A DNA stretch of 64,000 nt from Candidatus Thermochlorobacter aerophilus (lineage in GTDB: Bacteria; Bacteroidota; Chlorobiia; Chlorobiales; Thermochlorobacteraceae): the NCBI GenBank assembly GCA_002794105.1, contig PHFL01000071.1:46643-110642 (forward strand), given 5' to 3'. The notes under the pieces are model-generated. The model worked only from the letters and a program-made list of their open reading frames with translations. It was not told the origin of the DNA and did not search any database. A program made the position numbers and the translations under genes. This document shows, piece after piece, positions 15,802 to 55,428 of the stretch (its first letter is position 1; the number at the start of each line of letters is the position of its first letter).

Positions 15802-17631
15802 ATGACCGAACTTCTCTGGGACGGCAAATACAAAGACGGCAAAAAAACATCACCCATTCGCATCGCACTCCCGTTTCAGACCATTGAAACCCTTAACGAG
15901 AGCGCAACCGACCGACAAAAACGGCTCAATAGCCTCTTTCAACAAAAAGACGATACCACTTGGTATAACCGCCTCATCTGGGGCGATAAAAAATACGTGC
16001 TCCCCTCGCTCCTGCCCGAATTCGCTGGCAAAGTGGATTTGATTTACATCGACCCGCCCTTCAACGTCGGCGCCGACTTCTCCTTCACCACCACACTCCC
16101 GCCCGCCCCCGACGACGGCGACGAACAAACGACCTTCACCAAAGAACCCAGCATCATCGAACAAAAAGCTTACCGCGATACTTGGGGACGCGGCTTGGAC
16201 TCCTACCTCCAATGGTTCTACGAAACCGTCGTTCTATTGCGAGAACTCCTCGCCGATACTGGCTCCATCTACGTCCATCTCGACTGGCACGTCGGACACT
16301 ACGCCAAATGCGTGTTAGATGAAGTGTTCGGGTATGAGAATTTTAGAAATGAAATTTATTGGTATTACTATAATAAGATGCCGGATACTCGTAAAGGCGT
16401 TTTCCCTCGTGCAACAGACACAATTTATTGGTATGTAAAAAACAAATCATCTAACTATTGCTTTAATCCTCTTACAGAAAAAAGAGATACCCCTGTTAAA
16501 CAACTTGTGCGAAAAAAGGTTGATGGTAAAGCCATCAACGCAAGGGATGAAGAAGGAAATGTTATGTATCAAATCCGAGACGAGAGAGTTGTTGACAATG
16601 TTTGGCGGTTATCAATGCTTCAGCCAGCAGATAGAACAGAAAACCTCTTCTATCAAACACAAAAACCAGAAGCCCTGTTAGACCGCATCATCAAGGCGAG
16701 TTCGAATGAGGGGGATTTGGTGTTGGATTGTTTTTGTGGGAGCGGGACGACGGCGGCGGTGGCGGAGAAGCTTGGTCGGCGTTGGATTGCGTGCGATTTA
16801 GGTCGGTTTGCGATTCACACGACGCGCAAGCGGCTGTTGAGCATTCCGAATGTCAAGCCGTTTGTGGTGCAGAATTTGGGCAAGTATGAGCGGCAGGCGT
16901 GGGTTCAGGCGGAGTTTGAGCGACCGGAGAGTCGGTTAGAGCAGGAGCGGGCGTATCGGAAGTTTATTTTGGAGTTGTATCATGCGACGGAGTTAGCAGG
17001 TTACACGTGGATACATGGGGTGAAGTCGGGGCGGGCGGTGCATGTTGGAGGTGTGGAGGCGCCAGTAGCGGTAGAAGATGTGCGGCAGATGGTCATAGAG
17101 TTTTTGAAATTAGTAGGCAAAGAGCGGGCACTGACCATCAACGGGATTGATGTTTTAGGTTGGGAGTTTGCTTTTGAGTTAAATGAAATTGCGCGTGAAT
17201 ATGCGGAAAGGAACGGAGTTGATGTGAAGTTTAAGAAAATTCCGCGTGAGGTGTTGGAGAAGAAGGCGGTCGAGCAGGGCGATATTAAGTTTTATGAGTT
17301 AGCGGCGTTGGAGGTTGAGACGGCGGTCAAGGCTATGACGCTGGTGCTGAATTTAAAGAATTTCACGATTCCGCCTGACGATGTGCCGCCGGAGGTTCAG
17401 CGCGGGATTACGCATTGGAGTCAGTGGATTGATTATTGGAGCGTGGATTGGAACTATCGGGGCGACACGTTTCACAACGAGTGGCAGAGTTATCGGACGA
17501 AGAAAAATCCGAAGATAGAGCTTTCGGCAAGCCATGAATATGAAGCGGCAGGGAAATATACTGTGTTAGTGAAGGTAATAGACATTTTGGGCAACGATAC
17601 AACAAAGGCTTTGCAGGTGGTAATTGGTTAA
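15802..17631 (+). CDS. mod: Type III restriction-modification system, DNA methyltransferase (Mod)
   Basis: Beta-class N6-adenine (or N4-cytosine) DNA methyltransferase, 609 residues. Motif IV DPPF is at residues 84-87 (IYIDPPFNVG); the AdoMet motif I VLDCFCGSGTTAAVAEKLG lies near 305-325. The specificity (target recognition) region lies between them. The central part, roughly bases 16320-16690, is visibly more AT-rich than its flanks, as expected for an exchanged specificity segment. The last about 45 residues (HEYEAAGKYTVLVKVIDILG and on) resemble a PKD-type beta-sandwich. The res gene follows immediately, and together they should methylate and cut at a short asymmetric site. No promoter was recognised in the 117-base gap upstream. 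Confidence 0.9.
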   Translation: MTELLWDGKYKDGKKTSPIRIALPFQTIETLNESATDRQKRLNSLFQQKDDTTWYNRLIWGDKKYVLPSLLPEFAGKVDLIYIDPPFNVGADFSFTTTLPPAPDDGDEQTTFTKEPSIIEQKAYRDTWGRGLDSYLQWFYETVVLLRELLADTGSIYVHLDWHVGHYAKCVLDEVFGYENFRNEIYWYYYNKMPDTRKGVFPRATDTIYWYVKNKSSNYCFNPLTEKRDTPVKQLVRKKVDGKAINARDEEGNVMYQIRDERVVDNVWRLSMLQPADRTENLFYQTQKPEALLDRIIKASSNEGDLVLDCFCGSGTTAAVAEKLGRRWIACDLGRFAIHTTRKRLLSIPNVKPFVVQNLGKYERQAWVQAEFERPESRLEQERAYRKFILELYHATELAGYTWIHGVKSGRAVHVGGVEAPVAVEDVRQMVIEFLKLVGKERALTINGIDVLGWEFAFELNEIAREYAERNGVDVKFKKIPREVLEKKAVEQGDIKFYELAALEVETAVKAMTLVLNLKNFTIPPDDVPPEVQRGITHWSQWIDYWSVDWNYRGDTFHNEWQSYRTKKNPKIELSASHEYEAAGKYTVLVKVIDILGNDTTKALQVVIG

Positions 17632-17659
17632 TCATCAAAAATCAATCATTGACGAGTTT

Positions 17660-20224
17660 ATGCCTAAGACGAGAAAAAAATCTTCTGCACAGCAGGATTT
17701 TTTCAACATTGAGGAGCAATTAAGGACGGCAGTATGTGTGCCTCAAATTCGTGAAGCGGTCAGGGCATGGCGCGCCGATGGCTACAAGGGCACGACGGAG
17801 ACCACGCAAGAGCTCTTAAACTTTTGGTTTTGCACCGACCACATCTTGCCCAATAGAGAGCGGTTCCGTTTTCACAATGCACAGCGCGACGCCATAGAAA
17901 CCCTAATTTACATTTATGAAGTTGAAAAAGTGAGAACCCGCAAAGCCCTTTTAGAAAAATATGCCTTCAAAAGCCAAGCGTTACGCATGCCGCCTTACGA
18001 CGACTTCGCACGCTATTGTATCAAAATGGCAACGGGTAGCGGCAAAACCTTCGTGATGGCAATGAGCATTGTTTGGCAGTTTGCTAATTATTTGCGCGGT
18101 GGGCAAGACTATGCGAATACTTTCTTAATTATCGCCCCGAATGTTATCGTCTTCGACCGTCTCAAAGGTGATTTTGAAAGCGGCATATTGTTCAGGAAAT
18201 ATCCTTTTATTCCGAAGCATCTGGCATGGCTTTGGGATATGGATTACTACATGCGTGGCGATACCGAAAGAGCCTACACACACGGAGCACTCTACTTAAC
18301 CAACATTCAACAATTTTACGAGAGAGATTCAACTGCGGACAAAGAAGAGGTCGATATTATGACGGCAATGCTGGGCAATAAACCTTCTTCGCAAACAGTA
18401 GAAGTGAGCGATTTTGAAGAGCGGATTGCAAAACGAGAAGGGTTGGTCATGGTTATTAACGATGAGGCGCATCACACGCATGATGAAGAGAGCGAGTGGA
18501 ATAAATTTATTCGTAGGTTACACAAGAAGCGTGCGGTGGCAGCGCAATTAGATTTTTCAGCAACGCCGCGTTATACCAAAGGCAGTTTATTTGCTTGGAC
18601 TATTTTCGATTATCCGCTCAAGCAAGCGATTCTGGATGGGGTGGTCAAGCGCCCAGTGAAAGGGATTGCACAAGTTCAAGAAGCCAGAAGTAATATCGCA
18701 AGTGTGCGTTATGAGGCATATTTAATTGCTGCGGTAGAGCGTTGGAAAGAGTATAAGGCGCAACTTTCGCCGCTGAATAAAAAGCCAATTCTTTTTATTA
18801 TGATGAACGACACGCGCGAGGCTGATGACGTTGGCGATTGGCTACGCACAAAATATCCCGAAGAATTCAGTGGCGAAAAAACCTTAGTAATTCACACTGA
18901 CAAAAGTGGCGAAGTCTCTAAAAAAGATTTGGAGCTGGCGCGCAAGGTTGCCCGTGAAGTTGACCACGAAAATAGCCCTGTCAATGCAATTGTTTCCGTT
19001 TTGATGTTGCGAGAAGGTTGGGATGTTCAGAGCGTAACGGTAGTTGTTGGCTTGCGTCCTTATACTGCCAAAGCGAATATCTTGCCTGAACAGACAATTG
19101 GCAGGGGCTTGCGTCTCATGTTTCGAAATCAACCTTACTACACGGAGCGGGTGGATATAATTGGCAATAAGGCTTTCATGAAGTTTGTAGAAGACCTTGA
19201 AAAATTAGAGGAAATAACGCTTGAAACCTTTCAAGTTGGCAAAGATAAACTTAGAATTCTTACGATTCAGCCTGTAGAGAGCAAAAAGGAGTTTGATATT
19301 AACATTCCTGAAATTTCGTCGTTCTTAAGTAGAAAGAAATCCTTATCCGCAGAAATTGCCGCCCTTGATGTGATGCAGTTTAATATCAATCCACTTCCTC
19401 TGAAAAGGAAGGATATTTCAGAGATAGAGACGTTCACATATGAAGGGCGAGACATCTTAACTGATGAAAAGCTCTTAGAGCGCGAATACAAAATACCCGA
19501 AGCACAAACTGCGGAAGAAGTTATCGGTTACTATGCGCGCAGGATTGCGCAAAATATCAAACTTCCTTCACAATTTGCGGCGCTGGTGCCAAAAATTCGT
19601 GAATTTTTTGAGAAGAAGGCGTTTGGCACGACTGTGGATTTATCTGACCCGCTTGTCATTCAAGCCATGAGTAGTAATGTTGCAAGTTATGTAGTAACGA
19701 AAGAGTTTGAGAAAGCGTTGAAAGCGATGATTGTAGAAGAAAAACAGCCTGTTTTGCTTTCTTTGGAGCGCTGGCTTTCTTCAACGCCGCCCTTCCCAAC
19801 ATCTAAGAAAGTCTTAGAGGCTAAAAAAACCATTTTTAACTACACGCCATGCGATAACGACTATGAGTACGACTTTGCGCAATTTCTTGATAAGTCGAGC
19901 GACATCAAAGCGTTTGCGAAATTGCCTGAACAATTTGGGTTTTCTATTCAATATACCGATGCATCAGTGAACATTCGCCACTACTTTCCTGACTTTGTGG
20001 CAGTGAGCCAAGACGGGGCTCATTGGATAATAGAGACGAAGGGGCGAGAAGATGTTGATGTCAAACTAAAAGATTCTGCCGCCCTGAATTGGTGCCGCAC
20101 GGTTACTCACCTTACGGCAACAGAATGGAAATACTTGAAAGTCTTGCAAAGAGAGTTTGAAGATTTATCCCCTGAAAATTTTAGTGAACTTCTTACGGGA
20201 ATTACACCCATTACATCTGTGTAG
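17660..20224 (+). CDS. res: Type III restriction enzyme, helicase-nuclease subunit (Res)
   Basis: ATP-dependent translocase/endonuclease partner of the Mod upstream. It has the SF2 core: Walker A ATGSGKTF (about residues 124-131), DEAH-type box NDEAHHTHDE (about 267-276), SATPRY, LREGWDVQSV, and motif VI EQTIGRGLRLMFR. A C-terminal PD-(D/E)xK nuclease is seen as YFPDFVAV...WIIETKGRED (about 774-795). Length of about 854 residues is normal. The start is uncertain: ATG 17660 is preferred, but a TTG at 17624, preceded by AGGTGG and overlapping the mod stop, would add 12 residues. It ends 17 bases before the convergent hppA gene. No truncation or frameshift seen. Confidence 0.9.
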   Translation: MPKTRKKSSAQQDFFNIEEQLRTAVCVPQIREAVRAWRADGYKGTTETTQELLNFWFCTDHILPNRERFRFHNAQRDAIETLIYIYEVEKVRTRKALLEKYAFKSQALRMPPYDDFARYCIKMATGSGKTFVMAMSIVWQFANYLRGGQDYANTFLIIAPNVIVFDRLKGDFESGILFRKYPFIPKHLAWLWDMDYYMRGDTERAYTHGALYLTNIQQFYERDSTADKEEVDIMTAMLGNKPSSQTVEVSDFEERIAKREGLVMVINDEAHHTHDEESEWNKFIRRLHKKRAVAAQLDFSATPRYTKGSLFAWTIFDYPLKQAILDGVVKRPVKGIAQVQEARSNIASVRYEAYLIAAVERWKEYKAQLSPLNKKPILFIMMNDTREADDVGDWLRTKYPEEFSGEKTLVIHTDKSGEVSKKDLELARKVAREVDHENSPVNAIVSVLMLREGWDVQSVTVVVGLRPYTAKANILPEQTIGRGLRLMFRNQPYYTERVDIIGNKAFMKFVEDLEKLEEITLETFQVGKDKLRILTIQPVESKKEFDINIPEISSFLSRKKSLSAEIAALDVMQFNINPLPLKRKDISEIETFTYEGRDILTDEKLLEREYKIPEAQTAEEVIGYYARRIAQNIKLPSQFAALVPKIREFFEKKAFGTTVDLSDPLVIQAMSSNVASYVVTKEFEKALKAMIVEEKQPVLLSLERWLSSTPPFPTSKKVLEAKKTIFNYTPCDNDYEYDFAQFLDKSSDIKAFAKLPEQFGFSIQYTDASVNIRHYFPDFVAVSQDGAHWIIETKGREDVDVKLKDSAALNWCRTVTHLTATEWKYLKVLQREFEDLSPENFSELLTGITPITSV

Positions 20225-40781: not shown

Positions 40782-40945
40782 CGCTCTTTGTCTCTGGATT
40801 TGCCTTAGATATGCAGCACCGCCCGACCTGCTTTCTTGGCACTGCACTTCTGACTCAACTTTCTTGGACCACCGACAGTTACCCATTTTGGAATTTAACA
40901 GGCGTTTTTGTATGATTTCCTCCATGCAATTTCTTTGCTCTGTGT

Positions 40946-41323
40946 ATGCGCGTTCAGCTTATTCATAGGGTTGTTGCTATCCTACTAGTGTTAGCCTTGC
41001 TGCTTTCTCACGCACGGGTATGCTCCGACGAAAATTCATGCGGTCTTTGCAAATGCTGCAATGCAAAATCATGCATGCTTTCTTTTTCGGCTCCACCGTG
41101 CTGTGCGTCTTGCGAGGCAGCATCATCCGAAGCAACACTCAACGAGGCTCTTCCGCTTTTGGAGCAGGTCCACCAAGCCTTACGTGCGCATGCGCAGTGT
41201 TTCGTGACACTTGTCTATCCCTCACAGCCAATTTCTCGCTTTTGTGAAGACCGTTCTGAACGCTTCATGGCACTTGCTGCACAACCGCCCCTTCATCTAC
41301 GCTGCGAAGTTCTTCTCATTTGA
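40946..41323 (+). CDS. Small exported cysteine-rich protein, unrecognised
   Basis: 125-residue protein with a signal peptide (LIHRVVAILLVLALLLSHA) and twelve cysteines. Nine lie between residues 26 and 56 (C26, C32, C35, C37, C38, C43, C52, C53, C56), and C85, C100 and C120 are spread behind. The CGLCKCC and CCASC clusters look suited to binding a soft metal or forming disulphides in the periplasm. I do not recognise a family. It is the first of three short exported Cys-containing proteins in a row on the same strand, ended by a terminator at 41920. It begins 164 bases after suhB, so it may have its own promoter. Confidence 0.65.
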   Translation: MRVQLIHRVVAILLVLALLLSHARVCSDENSCGLCKCCNAKSCMLSFSAPPCCASCEAASSEATLNEALPLLEQVHQALRAHAQCFVTLVYPSQPISRFCEDRSERFMALAAQPPLHLRCEVLLI

Positions 41324-41407
41324 TTGCCTTCCCGTCGCTGCTTGAGTTGTTTCTGGTTGCGCTAATACACCAAGCGCACTTGTTATCAACTTTCAACACT
41401 GTCGTAT

Positions 41408-41677
41408 ATGCGTGTCTTTCTTTTTGCCTTGCTGGTCTTTGGGTTTGCCAGCCGTTCGTCAGGCGATAAAGCTGAAAAACCGTTTAATGAGCTTTGTCCC
41501 GTCATGGGTGAAAAAGTCAATCCGAAAGTCAAGACGGTATCCTATGCGGGCAAGACTTACGGCTTTTGCTGCAGCGGTTGCGACAAGAAGTTTGCCGCTG
41601 ACCCAGCAAAATATGCTGCAAACCTTAGTGCAGACGGCAAGGTGTTTGTAGGACAAAAAGCACCACTAACTCACTAA
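41408..41677 (+). CDS. Exported YHS-domain protein
   Basis: 89-residue protein: a signal peptide (MRVFLFALLVFGFASRSSG) followed by a single YHS/TRASH-like metal-binding domain. The motif is C30-PVMGEKV, then VSYAGKTYGFCCSGCDKKFAADPAKYAANL with C54, C55 and C58. YHS domains are found next to copper and heavy-metal handling proteins and are thought to bind metal. It lies 84 bases after one cysteine-rich gene and 17 bases before the next, so an operon for metal binding outside the cytoplasm is likely. No Shine-Dalgarno is evident. Confidence 0.82.
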   Translation: MRVFLFALLVFGFASRSSGDKAEKPFNELCPVMGEKVNPKVKTVSYAGKTYGFCCSGCDKKFAADPAKYAANLSADGKVFVGQKAPLTH

Positions 41678-41694
41678 AAATTGGAGATAAACAT

Positions 41695-41901
41695 ATGCGT
41701 AAGAGAATGTTGTCGTTTTTCGCTACTGTTATGCTTACACTCGGCTCAAGCCTTGCTTTCTTGCCAGACAGTGAGGCTGTTGCTGATGCAGCGTGCTGCT
41801 GTTCAGCTTGCACATATGAGGGTTGCACGAACTGTTGCAGCAGTTGCTGCGATACTGAGCGCTCATGCTGCACCAAGCCAATGGCATGTTGCTGTGAGTA
41901 A
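41695..41901 (+). CDS. Exported metallothionein-like cysteine-rich peptide
   Basis: 68-residue protein. Residues 1 to about 32 form a signal peptide (LSFFATVMLTLGSSLAFLPDSEA). The mature part, residues 34-67, has 14 cysteines (34-36, 39, 44, 47, 48, 51, 52, 58, 59, 65-67), in CC and CCC clusters separated by Ser, Thr and Gly. This resembles a metallothionein in composition but has no known bacterial metallothionein (SmtA) pattern, and it is exported, which is unusual. The Shine-Dalgarno GGAG (41683-41686) is 8 bases before the ATG. A strong terminator follows 19 bases after the stop. I infer metal sequestration in the periplasm or at the surface. Confidence 0.78.
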   Translation: MRKRMLSFFATVMLTLGSSLAFLPDSEAVADAACCCSACTYEGCTNCCSSCCDTERSCCTKPMACCCE

Positions 41902-41919
41902 CTGCTGAACCTGTTAAGC

Positions 41920-41948
41920 AAAAGGGACGCTACGCCGCGTCCCTTTTT
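41920..41948 (+). terminator. Strong bidirectional terminator
   Basis: GGGACGC (41924-41930) and GCGTCCC (41937-41943) form a perfect 7-bp stem with a 6-base loop, flanked by A-runs on the left and five T on the right. It closes the cysteine-rich operon and can also end the convergent lipoprotein gene. Confidence 0.88.
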
Positions 41949-41997: not shown

Positions 41998-42666
41998 TCA
42001 CTTTTGCACCGCTACGCCTTCTTTGCCTTGTTCAACATAGAAGTTGAGCACGGGGTCAATGTCTCGCACAGTAAGTTGCGTGCGAATAGGTTTATCTGTC
42101 AGCTCTACAGTTTGAAAGAGTATGCCACTTTGGCGCTCAGCATCATAGCCACTCATGAGCACATATTTGCCCGGTTTAAGTTCTGTGCCTAGCGTAGCGG
42201 CATCGAATCTGAACTTGCCTTGTTGATTGGTTTTAATGCCTTTGAGCTTTGGCAACTGTATGATAAGTGTCTTCAGCAAGCTGGCTTTATACTTATTTCT
42301 TTCCTTGTAGAATAGGTTGAGTGTATCGTTATACGCCATGAAGATTTTCTCGAGTGCTTCTGTATTTTTTCCTGCGTTGGCAATAGCTTTGCGCAAGCTA
42401 TCGATGATAAAATTGAGGCGACTTTCCACGCTATCAATAGCTTTTAACTCTGCCTTGAATCCCATACGCCATCTTTCCAAATTTTGTGAAACGACGCTAT
42501 CGGCAAGTAAGAAAACAGGATGGTCTATCAAGGTTTTATCACCCACATTGACATAACTCATGACCACTTCTCCTTCGATGAACAGTTCTTGTTTGGAGCA
42601 ACCAGTTGCAAAGATGAGGCTTATCAAGGTTATGCTGAGCCATAGACGAGTTAAGCTCTTGTTCAT
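41998..42666 (-). CDS. Lipoprotein of unknown function
   Basis: 222-residue predicted lipoprotein: hydrophobic leader LSITLISLIFATGC with lipidated Cys23. The centre (about 60-140) is charged and helical (AELKAIDSVESRLNFIIDSLRKAI). The C-terminal part (GIKTNQQGKFRFDAATLGTE, LKPGKYVLMSGYD) resembles the Ig-like carboxypeptidase-regulatory fold common in FCB surface proteins. No family name can be given. It is alone on its strand, convergent with the cysteine-rich operon and divergent from pnp. Confidence 0.75.
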   Translation of the reverse strand: MNKSLTRLWLSITLISLIFATGCSKQELFIEGEVVMSYVNVGDKTLIDHPVFLLADSVVSQNLERWRMGFKAELKAIDSVESRLNFIIDSLRKAIANAGKNTEALEKIFMAYNDTLNLFYKERNKYKASLLKTLIIQLPKLKGIKTNQQGKFRFDAATLGTELKPGKYVLMSGYDAERQSGILFQTVELTDKPIRTQLTVRDIDPVLNFYVEQGKEGVAVQK

Positions 42667-50543: not shown

Positions 50544-53435
50544 TTATGCTTGCGCTTGTGGAACTAACTGTTGTTCAGTTAAAATCTCTTTAATCAATTC
50601 GCTAATTTTGTCATTGCAAAATTGTGTCTTAAAATGAATCTTTACGCCCCCTCCAAATAACTCTTCTGCATGTCGAATCTTCTTAATCTCCTCTTGACTT
50701 AACCCACTCTCGTTAGGATAGTTTTTCGCCTCTATAATAAAGTGCAACTTTTGCTCTCCATTTTTCAACCTCACTACATATGCAAAGTCAGGTGAATAAA
50801 ACCTGCCCCCCGCAACAGGAATCCTAATAGAATTCTTGGGAATCTTGCTAAAAACCGTTACCTCTTGAATATCGGTTGTTATATTCTCCTTCTCCAATTC
50901 AGAGTCGTAATACAGCTCATTAAACAAGTATGAATCAGCAACCCCCTCTTCCGAAAACAACACCCCCACATCCGTCGCCGAAATCTCTTTGAGCACATTG
51001 CCGTTCTCGTCAGTTAGTTTGGTCGGATGAATACAGTTGGAAACTTTTTTATACGCTATGGAATACTTATCAAAGGCTTGTGTCATAAGGTAATCATCAA
51101 ATTGTTGCTTAATTCTGCGAAGCGTAGCCTGATTGAGATAGTTGTTGATATCTATTTGCGCCTCACGAATAGACTCATGAAGTGTGCGCATATTTACATT
51201 CAGTTCCTCTGCAAGTTTCTTCAAAAAGTCGCTATACCTCATGGTTGAAATTGTCTCGGATGTTCCATTTCGGATAGTCTCCTTTTCATGTTTAACCGCC
51301 TTATTTTCTTGAAACTGAACTTCCGAAAGCCTTTCCCTAACCTCATCTTTTACAAAACTATCTTTCTGCGTTTTTAGAAATTCCGTTAGCAAATGCTTAA
51401 ACCCACCTTCGTTTTCAAACCTATATTCAAGAATTACCTTTTCATTGAGCTTTTCCCAAAGCTCTCTCAACTCATCATACTTTGAAGTTCTAACCGTCAC
51501 TTTCTTCTTCTCGTCGGTGGCTTTACGCACTTTGTTGGAATTTACCCCTTCAAAAATCAGTGGGAAGTGCTGTTTAATAAACTCAAAACCGCCTTTCTTA
51601 AAATCATTATCTCGCTTGATAACACCTTGTTCATCTAAATACTCCAGTAACTTCTCCTCATCAGCAAATTGGTCAGCATACTTTTGAAGAATAATCTTCA
51701 ACAAAGGATTGACACTCGTATAAGGCGTTTCCATGGATACTGCCCCAGACTTATCATTGATTTCACTGACCAACTTATCTACAAAATCGCTTTCTGTAAA
51801 ATCTACAAAATAATGCAGGTAAAACTGTTCATCCTTCACACGGTTGCCATACTCATTGACCGGCAAACGCAATCCACGACCCACCTCCTGCAATTTGGAT
51901 ATTTCACTACCACTGCCCCGCAACTTGCAAATCTGAAACACATTCGGATTGTCCCAACCCTCTCGTAATGTCCACTTAGAAAAAATAAATCTTCTCGGAT
52001 TTTCTAAATCCAGAATCGCTTGCTTATCGTGTAAAATTTCGTTTATCTCTCTCTCAATCGCTTCATCTTTCTCCGTGTTGTCCCTTGAGAAATACCCCGC
52101 ATGCGTGGCTGAAAGGTCTCCCAGCGTCTTTTCAAGATAGGCTCTGTAAAAAGTATCCGTCTCCGTCTTCAGCAACGCTTCAGCTTGAGCTTTGATACAC
52201 TCTTCAACCGTTTTTCGGATGTACCCTTCTTTACTTCGGTATTCCTCTATGTTGTCAATAAAAAATAGTGTCAAAGGCTTAATCCTCACTTCCCTTGTAA
52301 GCAGTTGCCTCTCAATTTCAAAATGATGCTCAACCGCTCTTTTTATCATCAATTCCTGCACGATTTCCGCATACGAATACGGATTGATTTTATCGCCCTT
52401 TTTCAGTTCCAACCCATTAGATAAAACAACCGCGCTTTTATTCAACTTCTCAATCATCAAACCGTTCATCGCCGAATGAACCCTTGCTAAACTCTCTTTT
52501 TCTTTCAATTTCACAGGCTCTTCCTCATTGAGCCGAAAAGTCGCTTCCTTGCCGTCGGAATCAATAAACTTTACTACTGCATTCTTTCCACTTTCAAATT
52601 CGATAATATGCCCTATGACGCCTTTCACTAAATTCCTATTAAACGCATCAACAGCAGTCAGCTTATACACAAGATTTTCATACCTCGTAAAAGTCGCCCC
52701 ATAACGCAAAATAAACTGAGGCTTCATTTTTTGAAGATTTTGCCATGTTTTATTTTCCTGCTCAAATCGATGTGGTTCATCAATAATCATAAAAGGCTTC
52801 GTAGCGGCAATTGCCTCAAATGGCTTGCTGAAGCGGTCAAACATCATTCCATCATAGACTTTTTCCATCGTGTCAGAATTGACCATGCCTGTATTGATAA
52901 TCATGACCTGAATCGTATCCTTTTCAAAATTGCCAGCATTGACAAAACTGCTGACAGCAAGCGGAAAATAAGATTTTTTGTTTTTGTTACTTTTTTGACT
53001 TTCTACAATATGCAAACGCAGGGTCTTGCCATACTCCTCTCTAAAATGCTCACGGCAACTTTCTGACCGCAAAAAGTCAATTGTCCCTGCTTTGATAGAT
53101 AAAGTCGGCACGACAATAATAAACTTGAAGATGCCAAAGTGCTTACTTAGTTCAAACATCGTTTTGGTATAGGTATAGGTCTTGCCCGTTCCCGTCTCCA
53201 TCATAATATCAATAATGTTGCTCCCTTTGAATGGCTCATTGATGCCATACTGCCGTTGTATGTTTTCAATGTTTCTTCTGTATTCGGGGTCTTTTTCCCA
53301 TTCAATTGTAGGATTGATGCAGTTTTTTTCTGCTTCCGAAGAATGCACAACTTGAAGTGAATGAAAGACAGCAATTGTATTTTCTACAGCTTGCTTTTGG
53401 TGTGCTAAATCTCTTTCAAAATGAAATCCTTTCAT
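50544..53435 (-). CDS. res: Second type III restriction enzyme, helicase-nuclease subunit (Res)
   Basis: ATP-dependent restriction subunit paired with the Mod at 53437-55428. The start is ATG 53435 (MKGFHFERDLAHQKQAVE), one base after the mod stop (TAA-T-ATG), giving 963 residues; a longer frame to 53582 would overlap mod and is not conserved. Walker A is METGTGKTYTYT (about 73-84), box II reads IDEPHRF (about 216), motif III RYGATFTRYE and motif VI KLQEVGRGLRLPVNEYG. The C-terminal nuclease is SPDFAYVVRL...FIIEAKNYPNES (about 880-905). It is a different subfamily from the Res at 17660. No interruptions seen. Confidence 0.92.
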   Translation of the reverse strand: MKGFHFERDLAHQKQAVENTIAVFHSLQVVHSSEAEKNCINPTIEWEKDPEYRRNIENIQRQYGINEPFKGSNIIDIMMETGTGKTYTYTKTMFELSKHFGIFKFIIVVPTLSIKAGTIDFLRSESCREHFREEYGKTLRLHIVESQKSNKNKKSYFPLAVSSFVNAGNFEKDTIQVMIINTGMVNSDTMEKVYDGMMFDRFSKPFEAIAATKPFMIIDEPHRFEQENKTWQNLQKMKPQFILRYGATFTRYENLVYKLTAVDAFNRNLVKGVIGHIIEFESGKNAVVKFIDSDGKEATFRLNEEEPVKLKEKESLARVHSAMNGLMIEKLNKSAVVLSNGLELKKGDKINPYSYAEIVQELMIKRAVEHHFEIERQLLTREVRIKPLTLFFIDNIEEYRSKEGYIRKTVEECIKAQAEALLKTETDTFYRAYLEKTLGDLSATHAGYFSRDNTEKDEAIEREINEILHDKQAILDLENPRRFIFSKWTLREGWDNPNVFQICKLRGSGSEISKLQEVGRGLRLPVNEYGNRVKDEQFYLHYFVDFTESDFVDKLVSEINDKSGAVSMETPYTSVNPLLKIILQKYADQFADEEKLLEYLDEQGVIKRDNDFKKGGFEFIKQHFPLIFEGVNSNKVRKATDEKKKVTVRTSKYDELRELWEKLNEKVILEYRFENEGGFKHLLTEFLKTQKDSFVKDEVRERLSEVQFQENKAVKHEKETIRNGTSETISTMRYSDFLKKLAEELNVNMRTLHESIREAQIDINNYLNQATLRRIKQQFDDYLMTQAFDKYSIAYKKVSNCIHPTKLTDENGNVLKEISATDVGVLFSEEGVADSYLFNELYYDSELEKENITTDIQEVTVFSKIPKNSIRIPVAGGRFYSPDFAYVVRLKNGEQKLHFIIEAKNYPNESGLSQEEIKKIRHAEELFGGGVKIHFKTQFCNDKISELIKEILTEQQLVPQAQA

Positions 53436-53436
53436 A

Positions 53437-55428
53437 TTAGTATCGTGCGATGAATTTGATTTCCGTTTTCTTTTTGTTGTTATAGGCTCTGACATTCTCG
53501 GCAAGCTCCTGAAGCCTTGCACTCTCAAAATGATACCCAAACGCAATAATTGTGCGTGGCTCAAAATGCTTATCGGTATCAACTTTTTCTAAAATGGCTT
53601 TGAGATGTTCGGTCTTGAAACCTTTGTGCATCAGATATAACTTACCTTTGCCATAATATGCTGTGTAGTTGCCTAAATCTACTGGTTCCAACTCTTGCGT
53701 CAGTGGAATGCCGTCGTAAGTTTTCCAAGTTGTAAGTAAGGCTTTTATATCGTCTTCGGTCAGTTTGCCTGTATCAAAGAGCGTGTGCGAACTATCGTAT
53801 TTTTCGGCTTCATAGTTGTAGTTGTCCCATATCGGTATGGTTTCAAATATCTTGAATCCTAAGTCTTGTTGCTCTAAGGCTTTGATTTCGGCTTTCAGTT
53901 GCTTGATTTTCTCTTGCTTATCTTCTAAATCTAATTTGCCTTCTAATTCCTTGATTTCTTTTTGCTTTTCAGCGATTTTTTTATCAATGGTTTCGGTTTT
54001 GATTTTTTTAGCGGCACGAATCAGGCGCTCCTTTGTAATTTCAAAAATTGTGGGATACTCTACGCCTAGTTCATTCTTCACAAAATCGTAAGCCGTTTTG
54101 TTCTTCTTTTCATCAATTGGTTCAGGCATTTGCACTAAAATATATTTGCGGTTGCCCCCATCTTCCGCATTCAGTTGCATCACCGCATCGCCCGTCGTGC
54201 CACTGCCTGCAAAGAAGTCCAAAATAATATCTGTTTCTTTTGTTGAAATTTTTACAAAAAATTCAACCAATTGCGAAGGCTTTGGGTTGTCGAAAACACT
54301 GCTTCCATTAAATAACTCACTGACATGTTCAGTTGCATCTTCGGTCATAGGAAATTTATTAGAGTCTAAGAATGAATACGGCAAGATACCTTCACCTAAC
54401 CTTTGCTTCTTGTAAAGAATACTGCCTGATGGACTTGTTCTAAGCTCTGCTTCGCCCTCATCTAACATTTTTTTTATGGTCTTCTCTGTATAAATGCATT
54501 TTTCAACCAAGTATTCTTTTCCATTATAAGTTATTTTGATGTCTCTCCCTCTGGTTGAATGTTTTGCCGTTTTCCAATAGAAAATACCCTTATCATCGAC
54601 TTGGTCGTAATCCTTCAAATCATCATTAGAGTATGGCACAGTCCATTTCTCCAAACCATATTGCTTAACATAGACAACAATATATTCATGTTGAATCGAA
54701 ATATATTTTAAGTTCTGATTACCACTTTTATTCTTTTTCCATAAAAAAACTCCCACAAAATTTTCCTCTCCAAAAATTTCATCCATCATCAGTCGCAGTT
54801 GAGCAACTTCGTTATCGTCAATAGAAACGAAGATAGCGCCGTCCTCACGCAAAAGATGTTTGGCAATGTAAAGTCGGGGATACATAAAGGTGAGCCAAGC
54901 AGAATGGCTATTGCTTTTGCTTCGGGTAAAGTCTAAAATGCGTTGGGCTTTTTCTTCGCTGATGCCAGCCATTTTTGCTAATTCTTTGGCGGTAAATTTT
55001 CTATCATCTTGATAGACAAAGCCATCGCTGCCAGTATTATAGGGCGGGTCGATATAAATCATTTTAATTTTTTCGTAGTAGGCATGGGCGAGGTGTTTAA
55101 GCACTTCGAGGTTATCGCCTTTGATGAGGAGGTTTTGGGAGGTTGCGTTTTCAGGTTTAGTGTTGTGGGTTTCGTCGGCTTTGAGAAGCGTAGTGGCGGG
55201 GTCGGTGGCTAAGAGTCGTGCGTAGCTTTTGCCCAGCCACTCCAGCCCGTAGCTTTCGGCAGAGAAACTTATTTTGCTTTCGGCAAGGTGTTTTTTGAAT
55301 TTTTCTAGGTCAAACTTTTCGTCTTTATTGAAGCAGTGGGGGAAATGTTTTTTCAGCACTTCCAAATCGGAATTCGGTACAGCGATATTTTTGGTGATGC
55401 TTTCCCTAATGACTTGTATTTCTTGCAT
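53437..55428 (-). CDS. mod: Second type III DNA methyltransferase (Mod)
   Basis: Beta-class adenine methyltransferase of 663 residues, classical EcoP15I-like layout. The N-terminal helical region (about 1-95) precedes motif IV DPPYNTGSDGF (about 126-136), which is followed by a long specificity region. Motif I is DIILDFFAGSGTTGDAVMQLN (about residue 400). A coiled coil (IDKKIAEKQKEIKELEGKL and on, about 485-525) may serve dimerisation of the Mod2 core. ATG 55428 (MQEIQVIRESI) has AGG about 6 bases upstream. It is transcribed first and coupled to res. The C-terminal part (FEPRTIIAFGYHFESARL) is typical of the family. Confidence 0.93.
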   Translation of the reverse strand: MQEIQVIRESITKNIAVPNSDLEVLKKHFPHCFNKDEKFDLEKFKKHLAESKISFSAESYGLEWLGKSYARLLATDPATTLLKADETHNTKPENATSQNLLIKGDNLEVLKHLAHAYYEKIKMIYIDPPYNTGSDGFVYQDDRKFTAKELAKMAGISEEKAQRILDFTRSKSNSHSAWLTFMYPRLYIAKHLLREDGAIFVSIDDNEVAQLRLMMDEIFGEENFVGVFLWKKNKSGNQNLKYISIQHEYIVVYVKQYGLEKWTVPYSNDDLKDYDQVDDKGIFYWKTAKHSTRGRDIKITYNGKEYLVEKCIYTEKTIKKMLDEGEAELRTSPSGSILYKKQRLGEGILPYSFLDSNKFPMTEDATEHVSELFNGSSVFDNPKPSQLVEFFVKISTKETDIILDFFAGSGTTGDAVMQLNAEDGGNRKYILVQMPEPIDEKKNKTAYDFVKNELGVEYPTIFEITKERLIRAAKKIKTETIDKKIAEKQKEIKELEGKLDLEDKQEKIKQLKAEIKALEQQDLGFKIFETIPIWDNYNYEAEKYDSSHTLFDTGKLTEDDIKALLTTWKTYDGIPLTQELEPVDLGNYTAYYGKGKLYLMHKGFKTEHLKAILEKVDTDKHFEPRTIIAFGYHFESARLQELAENVRAYNNKKKTEIKFIARY

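Follow-up and report, generated by a model that had tools for sequence, protein, structure and literature searches.

A conserved three-gene cassette of Candidatus Thermochlorobacteriaceae with a predicted exported metallothionein-like peptide: a candidate periplasmic soft-metal buffering module

The locus described here raises the question of whether three small proteins, encoded side by side and each predicted to be exported, act together on metal outside the cytoplasm. It lies in a stretch of 64,000 nucleotides of Candidatus Thermochlorobacter aerophilus, an uncultured bacterium related to green sulfur bacteria (contig PHFL01000071.1), referred to below as the window. Gene 1 (40946-41323, + strand) encodes a protein of 125 amino acids with 12 cysteines, a CC...PPCC..C pattern and the C-terminal motif PPxxLRCxxLLI. 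Gene 2 (41408-41677, +) follows after 84 bp and encodes a YHS-domain protein of 89 amino acids with four cysteines. Gene 3 (41695-41901, +), 17 bp further on, encodes a metallothionein-like peptide of 68 amino acids, with 14 cysteines in the last ~34 residues, which belong to the mature part. A positively charged N-terminus followed by a hydrophobic stretch is present in all three proteins, and export was predicted from this by a simple hydropathy and motif check, not by a trained signal-peptide predictor. The cassette ends in a Rho-independent terminator-like hairpin (41920-41947, +; 11-bp stem and T tail), which is possibly shared with the convergent gene at 41998-42666 (- strand). The open reading frames (ORFs), their cysteine counts, the YHS domain and the terminator are as given in a preliminary description of the locus. 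No palindrome or clear metal-regulator box was found in the upstream intergenic region (40782-40945, +), the presumed promoter, and no pump, metal regulator or HMA gene adjoins the cassette in the window.

The three ORFs are genuine genes and are conserved in Candidatus Thermochlorobacteriaceae (order Chlorobiales). Most of their cysteine residues are kept in the homologues, and the trio is under purifying selection (pairwise dN/dS between genomes G000 and G002, of the same genus: 0.14 for gene 1, 0.15 for the YHS gene and 0.36 for the peptide gene). The ORF at 41695 is not a chance reading frame, since it was the only one of 726 ORFs (50 amino acids or longer) scanned in its own genome to hold more than nine cysteines in any 34 residues.

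Relatives were sought in nine genomes of the family (G000-G008), within a set of 98 Chlorobia genomes. Seven of the nine (G000-G004, G006 and G007), from three genera, have all three genes in a stretch of about 1 kb. The order is gene 1-YHS-peptide in G000-G003, and gene 1-peptide-YHS, followed by a gene for an HMA-DUF4396 membrane protein, in G004, G006 and G007. A GDCCVxC gene (NF041374) sits between the trio and the HMA-DUF4396 gene in G004; it was considered as a constant further member of the cassette and rejected, as it adjoins the cassette in that genome only. Gene 1 and a YHS gene are present in G005, which lacks the peptide, and none of the three genes was found in G008 (81% complete). 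The other 89 Chlorobia genomes yielded nothing similar to the YHS protein or to the peptide; a sample of 395 genomes of the phylum Bacteroidota likewise gave no peptide match beyond the family, and no relatives of the peptide were found on plasmids. The genes flanking the cassette vary between genera, and the block therefore moves or is kept as a unit. The listed contamination of the window's assembly (3.4 Mb) is 12%; this is unlikely to matter for the cassette because in G002 the cassette is followed by the lipoprotein, pnp-, murA- and folB-like ORFs (read by eye) that also follow it in the window, and the cassette is very probably native to the window's genome. Failure of the genes to co-occur in relatives had been named as an outcome that would count against an extracytoplasmic metal-handling unit; the conservation of the trio in seven genomes and three genera favours such a unit.

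Gene 1 matched no curated family (Pfam, NCBIfam), and neither the window's protein nor the other family members matched HYC_CC_PP (NF047658, cut-off 28 bits), likewise a short exported protein, which heads CusA/CzcA RND operons of Bacteroidota. A relation was reached through an intermediate profile. The gene 1 profile (A2) found nine loci outside the family. At eight of them RND metal-efflux genes (CusA/CzcA-type operons) are no more than a few kb away, and the ninth adjoins genes for an HMA-like protein and a TonB receptor. The proteins of four of these loci (L147 and L149-L151) were matched with per-genome E values of 2e-5 to 9e-4 and score 30-72 bits with NF047658, over the HYC_CC_PP cut-off. 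When the profiles of gene 1 and of the HYC_CC_PP-like protein of locus L079 were compared directly, the match was not significant (probability 3.6%). Because its profile finds mostly RND-operon loci, and four of the nine proteins pass the cut-off, the gene 1 protein is best regarded as divergent from, but distantly related to, the small proteins encoded first in heavy-metal RND operons of Bacteroidota. It resembles HYC_CC_PP in its central CC pairs and in a C-terminal PP...LLI-like end, and differs in its larger number of cysteines, in the missing NF047658 match and in having no RND pump beside it in the window.

The YHS protein matched PF04945 with 41.2 bits (Pfam cut-off 30.3 bits). Its four cysteines (Cys30, Cys54, Cys55 and Cys58) are invariant in nine family members and in distant relatives, and form a candidate metal-holding core. 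Relatives of gene 2 are, to judge from their N-termini, mostly lipoproteins: a lipobox-like cysteine is present in the YHS proteins of G001, G002 and G004-G007 (in G007 as read from the alignment) and is missing in the window and in G003. G005 has two YHS proteins, of which only the solo one (L019) carries this cysteine. The CP...YGFCC..C core is shared with the YHS/TRASH domains (PF04945) of heavy-metal P-type ATPases and of the copper-responsive adenylyl cyclase of M. phlei (PMC4626032), but gene 2 encodes a stand-alone protein, predicted to be exported or a lipoprotein, and not a domain of an enzyme or ATPase. On plasmids, matches to the YHS protein were mostly YHS parts of heavy-metal P-type ATPases. 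A fold search with a model of the YHS protein gave weak matches (E >= 0.1), with YHS-like regions of hydroxylases first and TRASH/LIM domains lower, a result that agrees with the domain assignment without deciding it. Beyond the family, at loci L083 and L087, a Cu-translocating ATPase (TIGR01511, about 600 bits) has as its neighbour a secreted protein with two YHS domains. These proteins (L083:4899-5504 and L087:4620-5144) and that of L084 (2316-2831, beside a Cu-ATPase called by eye only) come from Bacteroidota and Chlorobiota MAGs and have a His-rich linker.

In G005, genes 1 and 2 are part of a pump operon. This operon reads gene 1-YHS-HMA/MauE-CusA-OEP-CusB, with a heavy-metal-binding domain (HMBD), and it is the only one of the family loci with a CusA-type permease near the cassette genes; none was found near the cassette in the window. 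The earlier statement that no metal pump is adjacent holds for the window, but not for this relative. The G005 operon is akin to CusCBA/CzcCBA operons with accessory HMA and YHS genes, and in an Ignavibacteriales genome (L081) a secreted YHS gene lies directly 3' of CusA-OEP-CusB. The window and its six relatives with the full trio differ from such operons in that no pump gene adjoins and that the Cys-rich peptide has joined. The proposal of an extracytoplasmic metal unit is supported in part, through the co-occurrence of the three genes. The products of genes 1 and 2, however, are of known kinds, with relatives that adjoin heavy-metal RND pumps or Cu-ATPases.

The homologues of the peptide have in common an N-terminus that resembles a signal peptide and a tail carrying 12-15 cysteines in CC, CCC, CxC and CxxC runs, with almost no histidine or aromatic residues and with a net negative charge. 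Their identity is 25-53%; the cysteine content is kept and the spacing shifts, which makes the peptide metallothionein-like rather than a disulfide knot. It has the traits of metallothioneins (short, very rich in cysteine, with CC, CxC and CxxC motifs and few aromatics), a signature that marks the gene 3 product as a putative metal binder. No curated family in Pfam or NCBIfam was matched, with no metallothionein family at E values up to 5, and no solved structure was found, with no solved metallothionein at E values up to 10; composition filters may hide metallothionein matches in such searches. The peptide appears on these searches to be a new lineage-specific family. The profile searches called for in the preliminary description placed the YHS protein over a Pfam cut-off, led from gene 1 to HYC_CC_PP by way of a profile and left the peptide without a curated family.

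The standard bacterial metallothioneins are SmtA and MymT (PMC7558416). The peptide is like them in its small size, in having about 40% cysteine in the mature part and in its CC, CxC and CxxC motifs, but carries a predicted export signal and has no match to metallothionein families. The preliminary description stated that the known bacterial metallothioneins are cytoplasmic. An exported Cys-rich store has a precedent in Csp1 of methanotrophs, a Tat-exported copper store (PMC7558416); Csp1 is, however, a folded four-helix bundle. Although both are proposed exported multi-Cys stores of metal (copper), the mature peptide is about 40 residues long and has no detectable homology to Csp1, and neither a Tat signal nor a four-helix bundle was recognised on reading its sequence; its N-terminus (MRKRMLSFFAT) reads without a twin-Arg motif.

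The HMA-DUF4396 membrane protein and the peptide occur in the same seven of the 98 Chlorobia genomes and in no other. The HMA-DUF4396 gene adjoins the cassette in G004, G006 and G007 and is separate, but retained, in the other four. Because the genomes are related (one family), this co-occurrence is supportive but not independent evidence. At loci L020 (9566-10333) and L053 (8640-9407), MauE and DUF4396 membrane domains are each fused to an N-terminal HMA domain, and in related genomes the two kinds of fusion seem to fill one and the same role next to the YHS gene, as its partner. G000-G003 yielded no heavy-metal P1B ATPase above the curated cut-off, whereas such ATPases are present in G009-G014, which are Chlorobiales of other families; CusA over its cut-off was likewise not found in G000, G001 and G003. 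The window's genome (G000) thus shows neither kind of pump over cut-off.

Two of the three genes are of kinds normally found beside efflux pumps and the third encodes a metallothionein-like peptide; for these reasons the probable function of the set is to trap a toxic metal, copper being the likeliest, outside the cytoplasm with no neighbouring pump. On balance we favour, with moderate confidence, a periplasmic soft-metal buffering module, most likely for Cu(I)/Ag(I). As relatives of gene 1 and of the YHS gene adjoin RND pumps and Cu-ATPases, the cassette can be understood as efflux-accessory genes separated from their pump with a peptide added, and its best reading is the periplasmic accessory part of heavy-metal efflux, uncoupled from the RND pump and joined with an exported metallothionein-like sink. 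Metal that is already in the periplasm, or that the HMA-DUF4396 protein moves into it, would bind to the conserved cysteines of the YHS protein and then be kept by the peptide in a metal-thiolate cluster, so that the flow would run from HMA-DUF4396 to YHS to peptide. The gene 1 protein may be a further Cys-rich binding or protection factor of the periplasm, as its relatives presumably are for Cus/Czc pumps. The genes would have split off from the RND pump in the window's lineage, and with that separation sequestration, not expulsion, would be the main outcome. Points against buffering are that the window's cassette has neither a pump, a metal regulator nor an HMA gene beside it, that the upstream region showed no regulatory motif, and that an exported Cys-rich peptide that is free of metal could be oxidised to disulfides in the periplasm.

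Copper is the best-supported metal because those neighbours of the outside relatives to which curated models assign a metal are either Cu-ATPases (TIGR01511) or CusB-type adaptors carrying HMBD, and because a YHS domain has a Cu-responsive precedent (PMC4626032). The best match of the HMA-DUF4396 protein, to a CopZ-family model, also points to copper, although it lies below the cut-off of that model. These observations make it unlikely that the same exported module serves Zn(II)/Cd(II), Hg(II) or As(III) instead of Cu(I), even though a site set made up of cysteines only fits any soft metal, the HMA domains of the lineage also score with MerTP/MerP models, the GDCCVxC gene accompanies the set in G004, and one relative of gene 1 (L143) lies near ArsR-like and arsenic-type ORFs (read by eye).

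Copper might also be handled for supply and not for defence. Thermochlorobacter is aerobic, and if this holds for the present lineage, the set could store copper and pass it to periplasmic cuproenzymes such as cytochrome oxidase. The confinement of the cassette to Thermochlorobacteriaceae (0 of the other 89 Chlorobia genomes searched) agrees with this, as do the absence of P1B ATPases, the usual means of Cu export and cuproenzyme assembly, from genera g1 and g2 and the precedent that Csp1 provides for a Cu store outside the cytoplasm (PMC7558416). In other taxa, however, genes 1 and 2 belong with efflux operons, and no oxidase-assembly gene was recognised beside the cassette at the loci read; we consider a supply role quite improbable. 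Least probable, and very unlikely in our judgement, is that gene 3, whose small, Cys-rich product is predicted to be exported and changes fast in sequence, encodes a disulfide-rich secreted peptide (of a bacteriocin-like or structural type, or the precursor of a modified peptide) and stands beside metal genes by chance. Its conserved cysteine content without conserved spacing and its near lack of aromatics and histidine are metallothionein-like and not knottin-like, it always occurs with the YHS gene and gene 1, and the genes recognised beside it include none for modification, immunity or export.

A bolder extension of the buffering reading is put forward tentatively and may well be wrong: that this Chlorobiales lineage separated periplasmic accessory genes from their pump and replaced export by storage, the peptide, a YHS carrier and HMA-DUF4396 forming a copper route independent of P-type ATPases and of a type not yet described. 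Replacement of the pump is not general, since the g3 genomes keep a P1B-like ATPase and CusA elsewhere in the genome. If the buffering reading is true, the cassette offers a testable bacterial case of an exported metallothionein-like metal sink and ties HYC_CC_PP-like, stand-alone secreted YHS and HMA-DUF4396 proteins to one periplasmic metal-handling function; it also raises the question of how a lineage copes with copper when no P1B ATPase above the cut-off is seen in its genomes. In a literature search of incomplete coverage, no description was found of an exported metallothionein-like peptide tied to a YHS protein, nor any work on YHS with metallothionein, on GDCCVxC or on HYC_CC_PP; DUF4396 had one passing mention, beside a metal-resistance island of an acidophile.

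Elsewhere in the window, a type III restriction-modification pair (EcoP15I-like Mod and Res; 50544-55428, -) lies in a stretch with a GC content of 0.38-0.39, as against about 0.48 around it, and was probably acquired. A second type III-like pair of methyltransferase and restriction helicase lies at 15802-20224 (+).
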